Assembly: GCA_017302715.1 (NCBI GenBank)
Contig: JAFLCD010000001.1
Location: 447,009 to 511,008 of the forward strand
Reading direction: 5' to 3'
Source of the DNA: Deltaproteobacteria bacterium
GTDB lineage: Bacteria > Bdellovibrionota > UBA2394
DNA length: 64,000 nucleotides
Shown here: positions 3,721 to 45,767 of the stretch, piece after piece
How positions within the stretch are numbered: the stretch's first letter is position 1
How the letters are laid out: each line of letters starts with the position of its first letter
Made by a program: the position numbers and the translations under genes
Notes under the pieces: generated by a model
Told to the model about the DNA's origin: nothing
The model's input: only the letters and a program-made list of their open reading frames with translations
The model's database searches: none

Positions 3721-6084
3721 ATGACTTTTAAGCGCAAACAAAGTGGATTTACTCTTACAGAAATTTTAATTGGCCTGGGATTGATTTTGATCGTCGGGGG
3801 CTTCGCCGTCTTTGCAGGTATTCGCTTCATGAAGCGAAATGCCGATGTAAAATTTGAAGCGAAGCAATGGGAAGCTGTTCAAACATTTCGAAAGCGCGTT
3901 ACCGGATTACTCGAATCTTCTGTGTATGTTTCAACGCGAGAAACTGACAATCAACTTTTTGGAATTTCAAATACTTCGGGAGCAAACTCAAGCGATATGC
4001 TTCAACTCTATGCGTTTCCTGAAGACAGCACGGGCACATCTTATTCGGTAGTGAGTCAATTTGGATGTAGCAATGGACTTTGTTCTAGTCTGCGCCTGCA
4101 AGATAAAAATAATCCAAATCCCGCACTTCCTTATTTCAATGTGAATCAATTCATTTATCTCGCTTCTCCAGAAGCTACTTACCTTGTTCAAGTGGTGGGC
4201 GGAGGAGGAAACAGCAAAACAGATGTAAAGGTAATGCCGAGCTTGCCTCAATTTGGTGCCGGAATAAAACCAATAGCCGCGCGCGTGGATGTGCAAACCA
4301 TTTATTTGAAACCAAACGGTCGAGCTGCGGATTTAGTAAAAGCAAATGCTACAATTGCTCAAGTCAATGCGCAGAGCTCGTTTCCTGCAGAAATTTTGAT
4401 TCCGTCGGTGGATAGTTTTCAAGTTCTCTATTCTCTCAAACAAAAACGAACTCAAAATCGGCAAGATAGCTGTGCATGCAGCAATGAGATCCAAAATTTT
4501 CGCTGGAAAAACGGCTGGCTTAATCCTGAAGGTACAGCGGCCGACGCATGCAATGCCTGTAACTTTAATAATTTAATGAGAGTGACTTTTGATTTGAAAT
4601 ATTTTGTTCGCGACGATTTGTTGCCTGAGCATACAAAATCAGAAGCTTTTACTTCGGCCCCCACTCGTTTTGATCCTCAGAATTGGGGAAACTTTTCTTC
4701 TCTTAATCTTTCAGGCCCTACGACGGCAGCGGGTGAGTGCGACGATCACTTTGAAAATCGTCGCTGCAAACCGCAATGTACGGCGGAATATATGAAACAC
4801 AATTTTCAATTTGCTGGCGGAATGAAAAGTTCAGATTTTGTTGAAGGCAGTGATTATTGTAACTGCCAAGGTAAGGGATTTAATTTGGCCGAGATTACTC
4901 GGGATGATAGTCGATACGGAGCGTGCTGCAAGTATCGTGATACGTTGACTAGTCGAGCGGGTGCCGATCCAAAAAATACTTCGAGTAATCCTAATCGTTC
5001 GAATGTGGCGGCTCAATGTTCGTTTACTTGGTGTACTGCACCTTCTCGCACCGACAATCCGTGGCTGGGTCTCTGTAACGCAGACACCGTTTGCGGAGGA
5101 GTTTCTTTGGGACGAACTTGCATTTATCAAACCATGCGTCCTGATCTCTGCAATCCAGATGGTGGCAAAGGTGGAACCAGTGGATCGACTTCAGATTTTT
5201 ATCCTCCCAATCCCAATCTTGTAACGCTGACGCAAGTTTCAGATTCTTCGCATCCGCTTCCGATTACCGATGGAAATGGAAAATTTATTTCGGGACAAAC
5301 CGACTTAAAAGGTAATTCTCTCGATGGAAAAATTTTATCTAAAACGGATTCGAACGCTTGCGAGTGTGAACGACAGCTTTATCCAGATGGAGTGACTCGA
5401 ACGATTGCAGTTCCAAGTTCTTATGCAACCGCATTTCCTTCAACAACAGATACAAATTCTACAGCATGGTCCGGAAGTTTTTCTATACCAGGTCATCCGG
5501 CGCGGTGGTCTCCAGGTGGAGGTTCTCCTAATGCAAATGAACTTTTTCTTTATCAACCGGATCCTTATTCTGTTTCGAAGCCGGACGGATGGAGAGTTTG
5601 TTGGGATCAAGTGTGGGATAATCCAAAAACATCAACGGGCTCTACCAATCGTTGTCAATTTCAAGCTGACTCAAGTTCAGGAGAAAACATTATTTCGCCA
5701 AGTTCACCACTCGATCCCGGATATTCATGGAGCGGTGGTGGAGGAATGCCGGGTCAGCGCACAGGAGCTGGCATAAGTGCGAATCAAATATTTATGAATC
5801 GATGTGCAGCGGAGCGAGCGGGTTTACCTCATGATTTGAATGTGAAACTCGATTTCAATGGATTTGATGCAAAAAAATCGCCCACATTCACGACAGATGT
5901 GCCTGGAGGCCGACCGAGCTGTATTAGCCCTGAGCGAGCCGCCGCAAGTCAGGTGAATGTCGATTATTTTTCTAAGCTGCCTTCTCCTATTAATGATTAC
6001 TCGGGTCGCTTGGCGCAAATTCAGTCGGATTGTTCAGGCACAAGCGGTGGTGGCGGCCCAACTCCCGGAAGTGGCGGTTTGTAA
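3721..6084 (+). CDS. Very large Cys-rich type IV pilin-like protein (PilW-type N-terminus)
   Basis: The 787-residue protein begins MTFKRKQSG followed by FTLTEILIGLGLILIVGG. This is a textbook class III (prepilin) leader: cleavage after Gly9, Phe+1, Glu+5 and a hydrophobic helix that packs into a pilus or type II secretion pseudopilus. Most minor pilins are 150-350 residues. Here about 740 residues follow the helix, including a dense cysteine region (around residues 245-275 and 340-470, with CNACN, CNCQG, CCKY) that implies multiple disulfides outside the cell. It ends in a Gly/Pro-rich tail. CGGAGG lies 5 nt before the ATG. The next gene encodes a PilX-like partner. A tip or adhesin-type minor pilin is the likely role (inference). 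Confidence 0.8.
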   Translation: MTFKRKQSGFTLTEILIGLGLILIVGGFAVFAGIRFMKRNADVKFEAKQWEAVQTFRKRVTGLLESSVYVSTRETDNQLFGISNTSGANSSDMLQLYAFPEDSTGTSYSVVSQFGCSNGLCSSLRLQDKNNPNPALPYFNVNQFIYLASPEATYLVQVVGGGGNSKTDVKVMPSLPQFGAGIKPIAARVDVQTIYLKPNGRAADLVKANATIAQVNAQSSFPAEILIPSVDSFQVLYSLKQKRTQNRQDSCACSNEIQNFRWKNGWLNPEGTAADACNACNFNNLMRVTFDLKYFVRDDLLPEHTKSEAFTSAPTRFDPQNWGNFSSLNLSGPTTAAGECDDHFENRRCKPQCTAEYMKHNFQFAGGMKSSDFVEGSDYCNCQGKGFNLAEITRDDSRYGACCKYRDTLTSRAGADPKNTSSNPNRSNVAAQCSFTWCTAPSRTDNPWLGLCNADTVCGGVSLGRTCIYQTMRPDLCNPDGGKGGTSGSTSDFYPPNPNLVTLTQVSDSSHPLPITDGNGKFISGQTDLKGNSLDGKILSKTDSNACECERQLYPDGVTRTIAVPSSYATAFPSTTDTNSTAWSGSFSIPGHPARWSPGGGSPNANELFLYQPDPYSVSKPDGWRVCWDQVWDNPKTSTGSTNRCQFQADSSSGENIISPSSPLDPGYSWSGGGGMPGQRTGAGISANQIFMNRCAAERAGLPHDLNVKLDFNGFDAKKSPTFTTDVPGGRPSCISPERAAASQVNVDYFSKLPSPINDYSGRLAQIQSDCSGTSGGGGPTPGSGGL

Positions 6085-6101
6085 TATATATAGACGGGGG
6101 A

Positions 6102-6130
6102 TGACCTGGCACCTTTTTAACCCCACCCCT
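6102..6130 (-). repeat. REP-like element, half copy a
   Basis: This holds TGACCTGGCACC then TTTTTAACCCCACCCCT, the reverse orientation of the dispersed element found at 18834, 21034 and 45729. It fills the start of the 193-bp gap between the two pilin-like genes. Two small hairpins (GACA/TGTC at 6137-6149 and TGGCA/TGCCA at 6175-6188) lie further down the same gap. Confidence 0.75.
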
Positions 6131-16570: not shown

Positions 16571-17530
16571 GTGCCTCGCCCCTTAAAGCCATTTAAAACA
16601 GCTTCTGTTCCTTTGGGGACGGAGTCGACTGTTCCGGCCAGTGAACTCAAAAAACCGGATTGGTTTAAAGTTCGTTTGTCTGAAAACGAACGCTACCAAA
16701 CGATTGAAGGTCTCGTGAAAGAGCACGGACTTGCGACCGTTTGTCGTGAGGCGCGTTGTCCTAATATATATGAGTGTTGGAACGCAGGCACCGCTACTTT
16801 TATGTTGATGGGTGAGGAATGCACTCGCGCTTGCAAATTTTGTCATGTCAAAACTGGAAATCCAAAACTTTGGTTAGACGTAGAAGAGCCTAAAAAAATT
16901 GCGAACTCCGTTAAAACTTTGGGTTTGAATTACGTCGTCTTAACTTCGGTGAATCGTGACGATCTTCCTGATGAGGGTGCAAAACATTTTGCAGATACAG
17001 TTCGTGAAATTAAAAATCTCAATCCAGAAATTTTGGTAGAAACTTTAACTCCCGATTTTCGTCGCACTCGCGAAGCTGCGATTCAGACGATGATTGACTC
17101 AGGTGTAAATGTTCTCGCGCACAATATCGAAACGGTCAGTCGATTGGTTCCGAGCGTTCGCGATGCTCGATGCCGACACGAAATTTCTTTGAATTACCAT
17201 CGCATCGCGAAGCAACTGAAGTCGGATATGATTACCAAATCTTCGATCATGATGGGACTTGGCGAAACAAACGATGAAGTTTTAGAAGCCATGCACGAAC
17301 TTCGCGAAGCTGATGTTGATATTTTAACTTTGGGTCAATATTTGCAGCCCACGAAAAATCATCATCCGGTTTTTCGTTATGTGCATCCGGATGAATTTAA
17401 GATGCTCGAACAAAAAGGTTTAGAAATGGGATTTAAATTTGTGGCGTCTGGTCCGATGGTCAGAAGTTCTTATCGGGCGGCCGAATTTTTTATTGAAAAA
17501 ATGGCTCGGGAACGAGTCGCAGCGAATTGA
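16571..17530 (+). CDS. lipA: Lipoyl synthase
   Basis: This radical SAM enzyme inserts two sulfurs into protein-bound octanoate to make lipoate. Both iron-sulfur clusters are visible. Cys58, Cys63 and Cys69 (CREARCPNIYEC) hold the auxiliary cluster that donates sulfur; Cys84, Cys88 and Cys91 (CTRACKFC) are the radical SAM cluster. The C-terminal VASGPMVRSSYRA ending with the conserved RSSY is present. The 319-residue length is normal. Translation begins at GTG, as no in-frame ATG lies nearby, with a short AGTAGGG in front. It is the first gene of a lipoate/2-oxoacid dehydrogenase cluster, 9 bp before the E2 gene. Confidence 0.95.
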   Translation: MPRPLKPFKTASVPLGTESTVPASELKKPDWFKVRLSENERYQTIEGLVKEHGLATVCREARCPNIYECWNAGTATFMLMGEECTRACKFCHVKTGNPKLWLDVEEPKKIANSVKTLGLNYVVLTSVNRDDLPDEGAKHFADTVREIKNLNPEILVETLTPDFRRTREAAIQTMIDSGVNVLAHNIETVSRLVPSVRDARCRHEISLNYHRIAKQLKSDMITKSSIMMGLGETNDEVLEAMHELREADVDILTLGQYLQPTKNHHPVFRYVHPDEFKMLEQKGLEMGFKFVASGPMVRSSYRAAEFFIEKMARERVAAN

Positions 17531-17539
17531 GGTAATAAA

Positions 17540-18829
17540 ATGAGTACGTTCAAATTGCCAGAATTAGGTGAAGGACTTTCGGAAGGCGAAATCGTCGCAT
17601 GGAGAGTTAAAGAAGGCGACACCATCAAGGCCGATAGCACGATGGTTGAAGTCATGACCGACAAGGCGACGGTAGAAGTTCCCGCTCCGCGAAGTGGAAT
17701 TGTAAAAAAACTTTATTATCAAGTAGGTCAGCTTGCAAAAGTGGGCGGACCCTTAATTGATATCGAAGAGACGGGTGCTAAAGAAGAATCAAAATCTTCG
17801 GAGACTCCTGCTGCAAAAACTCAGAACGCGCCTGCACCAACTCCATCGGCCCCAGCTTCAAGTCAAAGTGCTCCAGCTCCTGCGCAGAGAGAGCCCCAAG
17901 CCCGCACAGGATCAGCGATGGAGACCGCGCGCGTTTTAGCTTCGCCGGCTGTTCGAAGAATGGCTCGCGAGATGAGCGTTGATTTAGCGAATATTCGCGG
18001 TAGCGGAGAGCGCGGAAGAATTTTGCGAAATGATTTAGTCGCGACCACTCCGGCAACCACTTCGGCCACTTCTTCAGCAGTCGCGCGATCGAATTGGGCT
18101 GAGGGTTCCAAAAATTTAGAAGAGAGAATTCCTTTTATCGGAATTCGTAGAAAAATTGCCGATCGTTTATCAGAGTCGATGTTCACCGCCGTTCATTTTA
18201 CTCACTTTGACGAATGCGATTTTACAGAAGTGATGAAGCTGCGTGATGAGGCCAATGCGTATGCTGATAAAAATAAAATGGGCGTTCGTTTAAGTTTCTT
18301 ACCTTTCTTTATTAAGGCCTCAATTGCAGCGATGAGAAAGTTTCCGATTCTCAATTCTTCGCTCGATGAAGAGCGAAACGAAGTGGTGATTAAACATTAT
18401 TATCATTTTGGAATTTCGGTTCAAACAGACAATGGCTTAATGGTCGCTGTGGTTCGAGATTGTGATAAAAAAGATATTTATCAATTGGCGAAAGAAATTA
18501 AAGAAGTCGCCGATCGCGCTCGTTCCGGAAAAGCTTCGCTGCAAGATTTAACGGGCTCGACGATTACGATTACGAATCCCGGAAATATCGGCGGACTCTA
18601 CGCAACGCCGGTTATTAATTTTCCTGAAGCTGTCATTTTGGGAATGTTCCAAATTAAAAAACGACCAATCGTTAAAGAAGTCGATGGCGAAGAAACCATC
18701 GTCGCTCGACCGATGATGTATACCAATATTACGTGTGATCATCGCATCGTCGATGGCGCGATCGCAGCCGGATATTTAAAGCAATTTTGTGAATATATCG
18801 AAAACCCAGCAAAAATAGCATTTATGTAA
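17540..18829 (+). CDS. Dihydrolipoamide acyltransferase (E2) of a 2-oxoacid dehydrogenase complex
   Basis: E2 transfers an acyl group from its lipoyl arm to CoA. The domains appear in order. The lipoyl domain (residues 1-80) has Lys42 in MTDKATVEV. An Ala/Pro-rich flexible linker (about 85-125) follows, then the peripheral-subunit-binding domain (about 130-165, ASPAVRRMAREMSVDL). The catalytic domain ends with His401 and Asp405 in DHRIVDG. GAGGT lies ahead of the ATG. Whether the complex uses pyruvate or branched-chain oxoacids cannot be told, as the E1 genes are not in this window. It lies between lipA, which makes its cofactor, and lipoamide dehydrogenase. Confidence 0.92.
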   Translation: MSTFKLPELGEGLSEGEIVAWRVKEGDTIKADSTMVEVMTDKATVEVPAPRSGIVKKLYYQVGQLAKVGGPLIDIEETGAKEESKSSETPAAKTQNAPAPTPSAPASSQSAPAPAQREPQARTGSAMETARVLASPAVRRMAREMSVDLANIRGSGERGRILRNDLVATTPATTSATSSAVARSNWAEGSKNLEERIPFIGIRRKIADRLSESMFTAVHFTHFDECDFTEVMKLRDEANAYADKNKMGVRLSFLPFFIKASIAAMRKFPILNSSLDEERNEVVIKHYYHFGISVQTDNGLMVAVVRDCDKKDIYQLAKEIKEVADRARSGKASLQDLTGSTITITNPGNIGGLYATPVINFPEAVILGMFQIKKRPIVKEVDGEETIVARPMMYTNITCDHRIVDGAIAAGYLKQFCEYIENPAKIAFM

Positions 18830-18833
18830 TTTT

Positions 18834-18910
18834 AGGGGTCGGGTCGGAAAGGTGCCAGGTCAGCTCCGTAAATTTGATAGCTGACCTGGCACCTTTCCGA
18901 CCCGACCCCC
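18834..18910. repeat. Full REP-like element: perfect 31-bp inverted repeat (copy b)
   Basis: The left arm at 18835-18865 and the right arm at 18879-18909 are exact reverse complements over 31 bp, separated by 13 bp (CCGTAAATTTGAT). The arms contain GGGGTCGGG, then AAAGGTGCCAGGTCAGCT. Outside the arms, TTAG and CTAA continue the symmetry after a two-base insertion. It sits between the E2 stop and the lpd start. Transcribed, it would form a very stable hairpin that could separate expression of the two genes or protect the upstream mRNA. Half copies occur at 6102, 21034 and 45729. Confidence 0.95.
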
Positions 18911-18927: not shown

Positions 18928-20400
18928 ATGAAAAAATTTGATGCAGTGGTGATTGGAGCTGGCCCTGGTGGCTATGTAGCGGCGATTCGCTTGGCCCAAC
19001 TTGGAAAAAAAACTGCGCTCATCGACAGAGATAATTTGGGCGGAACCTGTTTGAACTGGGGATGTATTCCTTCGAAAGCTTTAATTCACGCCGCACATCT
19101 TTATGAGACCATGCATGGCTCGGCTAAAGAAATGGGATTTTCTTTTAAAGAGCTCTCTCTCGATTTTAAAAAATTAAATGAATGGAAAAACGGCGTTGTT
19201 CAAAAACTCACCGGCGGAATCGGCGGCCTCTGCAAGCGTCACGGCATCGAAGTTTTTATCGGCACGGCTGAGTTTAAATCGGCGAAGCAACTTGAAGTCA
19301 CTTTGAACGATTCAAAATCTAAAGAGACGATTGAATTTGAAAAAGCCATTATCGCAACGGGTTCGGAGTCTGCCAGTCTGCCAGGTGTAACGATCGATGG
19401 AAAAACAATCGTTACGAGCAAAGAAGCTTTAAACCTTCCTGAAATTCCAAAAAGACTTATTTTGATTGGCGGTGGCGTTATTGGGTTAGAACTCGGATGT
19501 TTTTATTCGATGATCGGCTCTGAGGTTGTGATTTTAGAATATGCTTCTCAACTTCTACCAGGAACTGATCTCGATCTCGTCAAAGTCGTTGAAAAAGCAA
19601 TGCTTGCTCGCGGCGCTCAAATTTTTACAGGCTTCAAAGTTTCTGGCGCAGAAGTTAAAGGTAAAAAAGCCATCGTTAAAGGCACCGATGCTGAAGGAAA
19701 AACTCAGACCTTTGAAGGCGATGTGGTTTTAGTTAGCACGGGTCGAAGACCTTTCACTAAATTTTTAGGTTTAGAAAAAACAGGGGTGAAATTGGATGCG
19801 AAAGGATTTATTCCTGTAAATAAATCTCTCCAAACTTCAGTTCCAAGTTTATACGCGATTGGAGATTGCACTCCAGGAATGGCGCTTGCACATCGCGCTT
19901 CACATGAGGCGATGATTGCGGCCACTCACTTAGCGGGAGATTCTCATGCGCGAGTGGATTATCGAGTAATTCCTGCCGCGATTTTTACAGATCCAGAAAT
20001 CGCGAGCGTTGGAATTTCAGAAGCCGAAGCGAAGGCAAAAAATTTAGATGTGAAAGTAGGAAAATTTCCATTTGCAGCTTTAGGTCGAGCGCTCGCAAAC
20101 GGGCATCCAGAGGGATTTTGTAAGATTATCGGCGATGCCAAAACGAATGATGTGCTTGGCGTTCATATCGTAGGTCCCGATGCAGGAAATCTCATTGCCG
20201 AAGCGGCACTCGCGATCGAGATGGGTGCAAGTGTTGAAGACTTAGCGCTCACCATTCATACGCATCCAACTTTTCCGGAAGCGATTATGGAAGCGGCTGA
20301 TGCTTATTTTGGACATGCGATTCATGTTTATCAACCTCCACATAAACCTGCGGCTGCCGGTGGAAAGTCCCCCAATGTTTCGCAAGTGGGACATGCTTAA
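18928..20400 (+). CDS. lpd: Dihydrolipoamide dehydrogenase (E3)
   Basis: E3 reoxidises the dihydrolipoyl arm of 2-oxoacid dehydrogenases with FAD and NAD. The 490-residue protein has the FAD-binding GAGPGGYVAAI at the start, the redox disulfide Cys41/Cys46 in GGTCLNWGCIPSK, the NAD-binding GGGVIGLELG, the second FAD motif LYAIGDCTPGMALAHRASHE and the C-terminal catalytic HTHPTFPEA. The start at 18928 follows AAAGGAAG. A longer frame would begin inside the inverted repeat and translate it, so it was rejected. The last ~20 residues are a Pro/Gly-rich tail. The gene is in the lipA-E2-lpd-lipB cluster. Confidence 0.94.
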   Translation: MKKFDAVVIGAGPGGYVAAIRLAQLGKKTALIDRDNLGGTCLNWGCIPSKALIHAAHLYETMHGSAKEMGFSFKELSLDFKKLNEWKNGVVQKLTGGIGGLCKRHGIEVFIGTAEFKSAKQLEVTLNDSKSKETIEFEKAIIATGSESASLPGVTIDGKTIVTSKEALNLPEIPKRLILIGGGVIGLELGCFYSMIGSEVVILEYASQLLPGTDLDLVKVVEKAMLARGAQIFTGFKVSGAEVKGKKAIVKGTDAEGKTQTFEGDVVLVSTGRRPFTKFLGLEKTGVKLDAKGFIPVNKSLQTSVPSLYAIGDCTPGMALAHRASHEAMIAATHLAGDSHARVDYRVIPAAIFTDPEIASVGISEAEAKAKNLDVKVGKFPFAALGRALANGHPEGFCKIIGDAKTNDVLGVHIVGPDAGNLIAEAALAIEMGASVEDLALTIHTHPTFPEAIMEAADAYFGHAIHVYQPPHKPAAAGGKSPNVSQVGHA

Positions 20401-20415
20401 GTCGGTGAGATAAAA

Positions 20416-21084
20416 ATGCGTTCACTTGAAGTGATTTCATTTATTTCTGAAACTCCGACGCCTTATGAACAGGTTTGGGAATTTCAAAAAAAACGAGTGG
20501 ATGAAATCGCTGCTGGTCACGCGAGCGAATGTCTTATCTTTTGCGAACATCCACTTACTATCACCTCGGGAAGACGTGCTGTTAAAGAAAATATCATCGA
20601 TCCTCTTGCTCCTGTTTTTGAAATTGAACGCGGTGGCGATGTGACTTTGCATTCAAAAGGTCAGCTTGTGATTTATCCTCTCGTTAAACTTCATGGAGAA
20701 AATTTTCCTGGAGGACTTTCGGAATATCTGCGTTTTTGTGAGCAGGCACTCATTAATATTTTGCAAAGCTTTGGATTGGAAACAGGCAGATTCGGTCCCA
20801 CTGGTGTTTGGATCAAAGATCTTCAAGGTCGCACCAAAAAAATCGCGAGCATCGGGATCGCTGTTCGAAGATGGATCACTTATCACGGCATTGCGATTAA
20901 TATTTCAAATGACCTCAACGAATTTCAAAAAATTCGTCCCTGCAATTTCGATTCTTCGGTGATGACTTCTCTGACTGAACAGGGTGTGCAAATTTCTCTC
21001 AAAGAATTTGCGCAGCTGATTGAAGATGAATTTAGGGGTCGGGACGCAAAGGTGCCAGGCCAGTTATCAAATTTACGGAACTAA
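20416..21084 (+). CDS. lipB: Octanoyl-[acyl carrier protein] transferase
   Basis: LipB moves octanoate from ACP to the lipoyl domain, the step before LipA. The 222-residue protein shows the family's EHPLTITSGRR and GGDVTLHSKGQLVIYPL motifs. A Lys in RTKKIASIGIAVRRWITYHG and the Cys in RPCNFDSSVMTSL are the catalytic pair. The final 16 residues and the stop codon are encoded by a REP-like element (21034-21078), so the native C-terminus has been replaced by repeat-derived sequence. All catalytic residues lie before that point. The stop overlaps the stop of the convergent cNMP-binding gene (CTAA). Confidence 0.92.
   Translation: MRSLEVISFISETPTPYEQVWEFQKKRVDEIAAGHASECLIFCEHPLTITSGRRAVKENIIDPLAPVFEIERGGDVTLHSKGQLVIYPLVKLHGENFPGGLSEYLRFCEQALINILQSFGLETGRFGPTGVWIKDLQGRTKKIASIGIAVRRWITYHGIAINISNDLNEFQKIRPCNFDSSVMTSLTEQGVQISLKEFAQLIEDEFRGRDAKVPGQLSNLRN
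21034..21078 (+). repeat. REP-like element, half copy c, inside the end of lipB
   Basis: AGGGGTCGGG, then AAAGGTGCCAGGCCAGTT and ATCAAATTTACGG match one arm plus the central 13 bp of the full copy at 18834 (read on the opposite strand). It is translated as the last 16 residues of LipB, and the stop codon lies just beyond it. Confidence 0.9.
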
Positions 21085-23765: not shown

Positions 23766-24224
23766 TTACGAATCTTCAATTCGAACCCTGTCGCAGAGTT
23801 CGTTTGCGGGTCGCTCTACAGGTGGAAAATGAGGAGCTATACGCCTAGCCACTAAATCCAAGGCCTGTAAGAAGGTTTCCCCAGCCCTCTCATGGTCAAA
23901 ATCTTCAGCTAACTTGGCACCCATTTCAGCCCATTCATTGGCGGGAACGTATGGAGTAATCCCTTCGTCGGCGAGCAAATAAACGGCCTTTTCATACTTA
24001 GATATATAGATAAGTAATCCGGTTCGTTGAAGGGTTTCAGAAATTCGATGTTTAACAAATTGTTTATGAGCGGCCATTTCAACAGCTCGAAGCTTTTTAG
24101 ACTTCGGTAAAAAATAAGAAAGCCATGAACTTCGCTTAGAAATCACAGCGACGATTTCGAGATTGCAGATTTTCTCAATCTCCGAAATTTTTTGTTCAAC
24201 CTTTTGTTTAAATTCTGAATTCAT
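23766..24224 (-). CDS. TPM-domain protein, soluble
   Basis: The 152-residue protein carries a TPM domain (LEIVAVISKRSSW, then TGLLIYISKYEKAVYLLADEGITPYVP) like the adjacent YgcG-type protein, but has no signal peptide and no Gly-rich tail. The role of TPM domains is unsettled; plant TLP18.3 has phosphatase activity and bacterial members are envelope-associated. The ATG at 24224 (MNSEFKQK) was preferred to a TTG at 24245 that overlaps the upstream gene. The LemA - YgcG-type TPM - second TPM order is a common bacterial arrangement. Confidence 0.8.
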   Translation of the reverse strand: MNSEFKQKVEQKISEIEKICNLEIVAVISKRSSWLSYFLPKSKKLRAVEMAAHKQFVKHRISETLQRTGLLIYISKYEKAVYLLADEGITPYVPANEWAEMGAKLAEDFDHERAGETFLQALDLVARRIAPHFPPVERPANELCDRVRIEDS

Positions 24225-44299: not shown

Positions 44300-44437
44300 G
44301 ATGTAGTGGCCCCCCTAAAAAAATCTTACGTGACGTGTTGAAAGTCTGCGATAAGTTTATGAAAAAAATAAATAACACATTGCATTATCAGTTAAGAGTT
44401 CAACAAATTCGCGTTGTTGAGGAAAAATAACTTGTTT

Positions 44438-45730
44438 ATGAGTTTTAATTATAAATTTTTTTCAGAGGTTTTTTTAGGACTTTTAATCCTATCTTTTTCT
44501 TCAGCTTTTGCCGGAGCTGATATTTTAGAAAAAATAGAAATCGTCGGGAACACGAAAACAGATTCCTTTTTAATCGAAAAAATGACCGATTTAGAAATCG
44601 GACAGGAACTTACGAATGCTCTGATCGAAAATGCGAAGGCTAATGTTTCTTCGTCAGGCGTTTTTGAAAGCGTGAATGTTGAGAATAAACCTGGCTCCGA
44701 TATGGGTCATCGCATTCTCGTTTTTTATGTGAAAGAAAAAATTACTTGGTTTATTGTCCCTGCCTTTTCATTTTCGCAGACAGATTTGGCTTTTGGATTG
44801 GTGGCAGGGGAGACCAATTTATTTGGTCTTATGAAAAAGCTCGCGATCTTTAGCGATTACAGCAGTAGCGCAAAACGTTTGGCTGGCGGATACCGAGACA
44901 ACGGAATGTTTGGAACTCATATCACTCTCTCGGTCGATGGAATTCTTCGCACAGACGATATGGCGGAATTCACGGACCGCAAAGTGGTGAGAAGAGTGCG
45001 CGTGACGGAATACGGCGGAACTTTTCTTCCAGGCTATCGGCTCCATGATAATGTGGTGGCTTCTTTGGGAGTTTATTTTCGACACGTTCAACAGAGGTTG
45101 AGATTTTCTGAACCCGCTCAAGATATGCGCGAGCCTGTTTTCAAAAAGGGAAAAGACATCGCAATGGTAGCCGAGATCGAATTTAAAAATACTCGTACGC
45201 ACAACGGTTTATCGGATGGAACAGAGATCAAGCTCTCTAGCCAATTTTCAGATGAAAGATATTTTAGTGATTTCGATTACAACAAGCAGCTCATCTATAT
45301 CACTCACGGCATTAATTTCTGGAATGAACAGGCAAACTCGACCACTCGCGGCTCCATTCAGCTGGGTAAGAATCTTCCTTATTATATAGAGCTGATGGCT
45401 GGGGGTACCAATCTGCGTGGATTTTTAAGTCGTCAATTTAGAGGCGATACTAAATATGCTTGGGGCCAAGAATTCATGTTACCCATTTATGACTTCAGCA
45501 GATTTATTTTAAGAACTAATCTCTTTTGGGACTCCACGATTATTTATTTTAAAAAGGACAACGAGGGAAATGGCGACGGCTTTAGTCGACAGAAGTGGCA
45601 TAACGGCCTTGGAGGCGGTTTTAGAATTTATCTCAAAGGTGTGGCGGTCCCACTTTTTGGCTACGATATGGCCTGGGGAATCGAAGACCGCGCCTACGGC
45701 TACTATTTAAGTGTCGGCGCTATATTTTAG
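44438..45730 (+). CDS. Omp85/BamA-like outer membrane protein with a single POTRA
   Basis: The 430-residue protein has a signal peptide (VFLGLLILSFSSAFAG) and one POTRA domain (about 28-108, ILEKIEIVGNTKTDSFLIEKM, then SGVFESVNVEN). A surface-antigen type beta barrel follows, ending with Phe as outer membrane proteins do. GTNLRGFLSRQFRGD matches the L6-type (V)RGF motif of Omp85 proteins. BamA has five POTRAs and about 800 residues, so this is a reduced paralog whose cargo is unknown. The ATG at 44438 is used, but the TTG at 44432 has better spacing to GAGGA. The stop codon lies in a REP-like element. Confidence 0.82.
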   Translation: MSFNYKFFSEVFLGLLILSFSSAFAGADILEKIEIVGNTKTDSFLIEKMTDLEIGQELTNALIENAKANVSSSGVFESVNVENKPGSDMGHRILVFYVKEKITWFIVPAFSFSQTDLAFGLVAGETNLFGLMKKLAIFSDYSSSAKRLAGGYRDNGMFGTHITLSVDGILRTDDMAEFTDRKVVRRVRVTEYGGTFLPGYRLHDNVVASLGVYFRHVQQRLRFSEPAQDMREPVFKKGKDIAMVAEIEFKNTRTHNGLSDGTEIKLSSQFSDERYFSDFDYNKQLIYITHGINFWNEQANSTTRGSIQLGKNLPYYIELMAGGTNLRGFLSRQFRGDTKYAWGQEFMLPIYDFSRFILRTNLFWDSTIIYFKKDNEGNGDGFSRQKWHNGLGGGFRIYLKGVAVPLFGYDMAWGIEDRAYGYYLSVGAIF

Positions 45731-45767
45731 GGTCGGGTTAAAAAGGTGCCAGGTCAGCTCATCAAAT
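45729..45767 (+). repeat. REP-like element, half copy d
   Basis: AGGGTCGGG, AAAAAGGTGCCAGGTCAGCT and CATCAAAT match one arm and part of the centre of the full copy at 18834. It begins within the stop codon of the Omp85-type gene and lies 59 bp before tRNA-Pro. Confidence 0.9.

Follow-up and report, generated by a model that had tools for sequence, protein, structure and literature searches.

The repeat at positions 18835-18909 of the window (the whole 64-kb stretch of DNA that was analysed) is best read, with a probability of about 0.87, as a miniature element that is non-autonomous and consists of two oppositely oriented terminal inverted repeats (TIRs) matching those of a Y1/HUH transposase gene present in one copy, a TIRYT related to the RAYT genes; the element would be moved by that transposase via its hairpin. 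The evidence comes from the architecture of the repeat family, from the gene that carries the same TIR and from relatives in which other TIRYTs are paired with other repeats.

The repeat family in the window and in the genome

A search of the window with the core GGTGCCAGGTCAGCT, allowing up to three mismatches, returned six matches, against 0.47 expected and a maximum of three in 100 shuffles. Five of these belong to the family and lie in four places (6099-6113, minus strand; 18851-18865, plus; 18879-18893, minus; 21051-21065, plus; 45745-45759, plus), and the sixth, at 23907 with two mismatches, was rejected as a chance match, being without the GGGGTCGGG part and within an ORF. Pattern search and shuffles thus confirm the four window copies, one of them complete, that the first-pass annotation had reported.

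The complete copy consists of a left arm, or TIR, at 18835-18865 (plus strand, with the B-type stem GGGGTCGGGTCGGAAAGGTGCCAGGTCAGCT), a 13-bp centre (loop) at 18866-18878, CCGTAAATTTGAT, and a right arm at 18879-18909 (minus strand); the arms are complementary at 31 of 31 positions (100%), which confirms the perfect inverted repeat of 31 bp flanking 13 bp of centre, and as RNA the copy gives a folding energy of -71.2 kcal/mol (z = -13.7). The centre given in the proposed consensus is not a feature of the whole family: ATCAAATTTACGG occurs only in this copy and, inverted, at 21035-21082, and the centres of the other dimers in the genome are mostly unrelated.

The complete copy lies between two co-directional genes, that for the dihydrolipoamide acyltransferase (E2; 17540-18829, plus strand), named by its sequence and by its position before lpd, conserved in relatives, and that for dihydrolipoamide dehydrogenase (lpd; 18928-20400, plus). 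Downstream follows lipB, encoding the octanoyltransferase (20416-21084, plus), the 3' end of which is made up by a partial element at 21035-21082 (plus). This is an inverted copy of arm and centre without the second arm, 48 nt long and 90% identical to 18862-18909. The remaining two copies are solo arms of the A type: GGGGTGGGGTTAAAAAGGTGCCAGGTCAT at 6101-6129 (minus), 16 bp past the stop of an ORF ending at 6084, and a second at 45730-45759 (plus), the first base of which is shared with the TAG stop of an ORF at 44414-45730. The statement that all copies lie at gene ends therefore holds, but the copy at 21035 is inside the lipB ORF, where it is translated as the last ~16 codons and the stop and takes the place of a variable C-terminal tail. 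Related dimers with a shared centre ~2 kb apart were seen both here (18835-18909 and 21035-21082) and elsewhere in the genome (C4:3353-3428 and 5325-5400), hinting at local copying.

The genome holding the window (G000) is a 2.39-Mb draft in 19 contigs. The core, with up to two mismatches, gave 42 matches in it, a few of them by chance, against one for a reversed-pattern control, and a 31-position model of the arm gave 45 matches at E ≤ 5, 32 of them at E < 1e-6. Merged, these amount to ~45 arms at ~27 sites, comprising ~14 inverted dimers (one of which is the transposase element described below), two 46-bp mini-hairpins, and single or broken arms. The first-pass annotation had called for such a genome-wide search, with about ten copies as the floor for such a family; ~27 sites, nearly all of them intergenic, lie above that floor, a modest copy number for a REP family. 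Each arm has a constant outer part, GGGGTCGGG, a variable stretch and a constant inner part, GGTGCCAGGTCAGC. The variable stretch is TTAAAAA (type A), TCGGAAA (B) or CCCCGAA (E), or takes one of two longer forms, C, with a GC-rich hairpin of its own, and D, with a tandem duplication of the inner motif; in four dimers (L016, L028, L030 and L039) an A-type arm stands opposite a C- or D-type arm. The two mini-hairpins, at C2:58679-58724 (L007) and C4:36051-36096 (L012), lie at unrelated sites and have the identical internal deletion of a dimer, which suggests that the short form itself moved.

The E2-lpd spacer is free of the element in four same-family relatives, where it measures 16-42 bp, compared with 98 bp here, of which 75 bp are the element and 23 bp lie outside it; the lpd orthologs of these relatives are 70-82% identical, with no element ahead of the start codon. 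This comparison with genomes of other genera, coarser than base-level resolution, would fit a clean insertion into the gap that separates a stop codon from the ribosome-binding site following it.

A transposase gene with the same repeat, and its relatives

A search of the genome with Pfam PF01797 found two Y1 genes. One, a single-copy gene at C14:130255-130920 (minus strand) that scores over the PF01797 cut-off, lies in an element at C14:130243-131072 and has the arm on both sides as a perfect inverted pair of 37 bp, AATTAGGGGTCGGGTTAAAAAGGTGCCAGGTCAGCTC; its last codons and stop fall in the downstream arm. The check for a RAYT-like gene with the same hairpin in its flanks, which the first-pass annotation had suggested, is thus answered by this 37-bp pair. 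The product retains the HUH motif NHFH and the tyrosine motif RYIHLNP, and NHFH or NHYH together with the YIH tyrosine is conserved in all four aligned TIRYTs. It matches NF047646, the NCBI equivalog model for RAYTs, with E = 2e-18 and 66.5 bits, below the curated cut-off of 80. No C-terminal match to Bac_DnaA_C, HTH_23 or HTH_28 was found in it with Pfam at E up to 1; Bac_DnaA_C is present in one of the four aligned members (G016). A sequence search of the PDB gave no match at E up to 0.001, and viral contigs searched with the inner arm gave none.

The second RAYT-like Y1 gene (C3:24373-24933) lies within C3:16526-28730 (locus L032), a region in which ~half of the 30 exact matches to CTCCGTCCCCA in this genome are also found, several of the copies being inside ORFs; one copy is in the window, at 16614-16624 (minus). 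Gene and repeat are probably a second, separate repeat/transposase pair.

Two genomes from sister genera of the same family, G003 and G004, have TIRYTs that are 42-46% identical, with different TIRs (GGGGTCGGGAGACGAAAGTGCCAGACTAGA in G003 and GGGGTCAGGGCGGTTAAGTGCCAGGTAA in G004), and each repeat is abundant only in the genome with the matching gene. The TIR core of G004 has 31 matches there (control, 4) and none in the genome holding the window; that of G003 has 50 matches at home (control, 2), none in G004 and one, with three mismatches, in the genome holding the window. The core from the window, with up to one mismatch, has 39 matches in its own genome, no more than one in any relative from the same family and no more than five in any of the 96 other genomes. 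Dimers examined in G002, G003 and G004 are near-perfect hairpins of ~27-31 bp, mostly with short centres. G002 has its own hairpin family, GGGGTCAAACCGGTTAGGAGCCAGGTTA, with ~19 arms (for example L218-L221); in this genome, which is 76% complete, no close TIRYT was found, the nearest being ~30% identical and having other TIRs, a point that speaks against the main reading.

Over a wider set of homologous TIRYT loci, inverted repeats of 15 bp or more flanked the gene at 45 of 74, against 46 of 1455 shuffled pairings (3%), and many TIRs at distant loci include GGGGTCA. The stop codon lies within the downstream TIR at 25 of 43 TIRYT loci (L065-L068 and L125-L204), or at 23 of 41 distinct loci once two duplicates are removed, and in all four family and phylum members examined the TIR encodes the end of the transposase or its stop codon. 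From the cognate pairing, together with the element-free orthologous spacers, we strongly infer that the element is mobilised in trans by the TIRYT.

Placement, stem symmetry and alternative origins

Neighbouring ORFs were called for 25 of the sites. Only the lipB copy is clearly intragenic, one further copy is in a questionable ORF of 101 aa, and overlaps of 1-36 bp with alternative starts or stops occur at a few sites; the chance of an intergenic position for random stretches of the window is ~4%. At least 12 of the 25 have one edge no more than 8 bp behind a stop codon, against a background of 8.5% (p = 3e-7, a value to be taken as indicative, given that the background is only the 3.6 kb of intergenic DNA in the window and that the element itself completes some of the stops, as TA/GGGG). 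Among 35 arms, A occupies the position just before the arm (-1) in 18, and T occupies -3 in 22.

The two arms of a dimer also resemble each other more than chance pairing would give: they are of the same type in nine of 14 dimers (permutation p = 0.008), and of the stem changes relative to the consensus 14 are matched on the opposite arm and four are not, compared with 4.8 matched after re-pairing (p = 0.005). G004 shows five matched changes against 2.1 expected (p = 0.02). This symmetry fits both dimers copied as units and a requirement for the hairpin, without separating the two; a small number of source elements may have passed on the symmetric changes, and shared descent of the B-type dimers would make the independent changes fewer than these counts.

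Stem symmetry, a very stable hairpin (-71 kcal/mol) and a position right behind stop codons at about half of the sites are also what would be expected of a selected RNA or DNA structure, such as an mRNA 3'-end stabiliser, a terminator or a protein-binding palindrome, that is immobile now and linked to the transposase only by history. We consider this improbable, as neither a T-run nor a terminator call was found at the element, which is therefore not an intrinsic terminator, an Rfam search gave no match, the element is absent from the lpd spacers of relatives, each genus has a repeat sequence of its own that goes with its transposase, and several copies are solo or broken.

The dispersed intergenic inverted dimers, accompanied by one RAYT-like gene that matches the NF047646 model of REP-associated tyrosine transposases, recall the canonical GTAG-tagged REPs and REPINs moved by RAYTs in Escherichia coli and Pseudomonas. 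An assignment to that class is nevertheless very unlikely: the arms (consensus GGGGTCGGGTTAAAAAGGTGCCAGGTCAGCT) have no GTAG or GTGG tetranucleotide foot, the symmetry is between the arms and not inside one arm, and the TIRs overlap the end of the gene, as in TIRtrons. The REP/MITE family with a RAYT-type transposase proposed by the first-pass annotation is accordingly supported in kind and refined to the TIR/TIRYT ('TIRtron') type, because no GTAG guide hairpin is present in the arms, which have GGGGTC as their terminal motif, and the NF047646 score of the gene is below the cut-off. Finally, a MITE of an unrelated DDE-type insertion sequence, for which the small size and the perfect terminal inverted repeats might speak, can hardly be the origin, since the flanks of 14 paired sites compared by eye showed no target-site duplications and, among the genes found, only a Y1 transposase has these TIRs.

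Relation to described elements and significance

The repeat belongs to a kind of element described before, the TIR/TIRYT or 'TIRtron' branch, within which it forms a new family. In the literature searched, the term TIRYT was found only in Di Nocera et al. 2013 (PMC3733652) and Quentin et al. 2018 (PMC6006769). The former, in the sections drawn on here, describes TIRYTs, or TIRtrons, as RAYT-like genes with flanking TIRs unrelated to GTAG REPs, some of these TIRs having a GGGGWSAS motif and some forming dispersed families of singles and dimers, and suggests that TIRYTs produce the TIR families. The element studied here agrees with those sections in its Y1 gene with long GGGG-type TIRs and an overlapped 3' end ('3'ov'), and in a moderately abundant TIR family of singles and dimers; its TIR sequence, GGGGTCGGG..GGTGCCAGGTCAGC, differs from those described there and is new. 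Its GGGGTCGG matches GGGGWSAS at seven of eight positions, and GGGGTCAG of G004 fits fully. The text of that paper does not mention Bdellovibrio or Myxococcus, and the cross-genus cognate matrix, the element-free orthologous spacers and the variant stems go beyond its sections considered here.

Quentin et al. 2018 (PMC6006769), in the parts considered, place 20 of 26 TIRYTs in TnpA_REP subclass 2.1 and report that their searches near subclass 2.1 TIRYT genes gave no REP-like sequences. The relative G016 is like that subclass, as described there, in having its Bac_DnaA_C domain, whereas the TIRYTs of the genome holding the window, G003 and G004 are short (218-222 aa) and without a C-terminal HTH by Pfam. 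The same parts of these two papers report no tests of TIRYT activity. With the REPINs and RAYTs of Bertels and Rainey 2011 (PMC3116915) and Nunvar et al. 2010 (PMC2817692) the family shares intergenic inverted dimers of a short repeat and one transposase per repeat type, but it has no GTAG-tagged hairpin, its arm is not palindromic and its copies number tens rather than hundreds.

For movement by the TIRYT we propose the following scheme, in which we infer the hairpin as the recognised form, the cleavage chemistry and any effect on mRNA. When the site becomes single-stranded, the two arms would pair as a long hairpin, and the transposase would recognise the arm by its conserved outer GGGGTCGGG and inner GGTGCCAGGTCAGC, the intervening stretch being tolerated. 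The catalytic tyrosine would nick the foot of the hairpin and the strand would be rejoined at a new AT-rich site, without duplication of the target. Single arms, mini-hairpins and copies of one arm with the centre would be partial or deletion products. Tolerated sites would be intergenic, often right behind a stop codon, where the transcribed hairpin would join the mRNA, here between E2 and lpd.

A more far-reaching joint reading, which we regard as tentative and rather doubtful, is that each genus of the family has a one-to-one code between transposase and terminal repeat that has repeatedly switched; as the TIR also encodes the end or stop of the transposase, recognition site and protein C-terminus would change together, and an insertion preference for T at -3 and A at -1 would aim the hairpins at stop codons, making them genome-wide 3' elements of mRNAs.

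The comparison provides unusually clean evidence for the matching of transposase and repeat, with transposases 42-46% identical, three repeats, and copies only in the matching genome, and with this pairing defined substrates could be used to test the recognition code. The placement of the copies right behind stop codons, among them the one in the E2-lpd operon, offers a natural set for the effects that mobile hairpins may have on mRNA.
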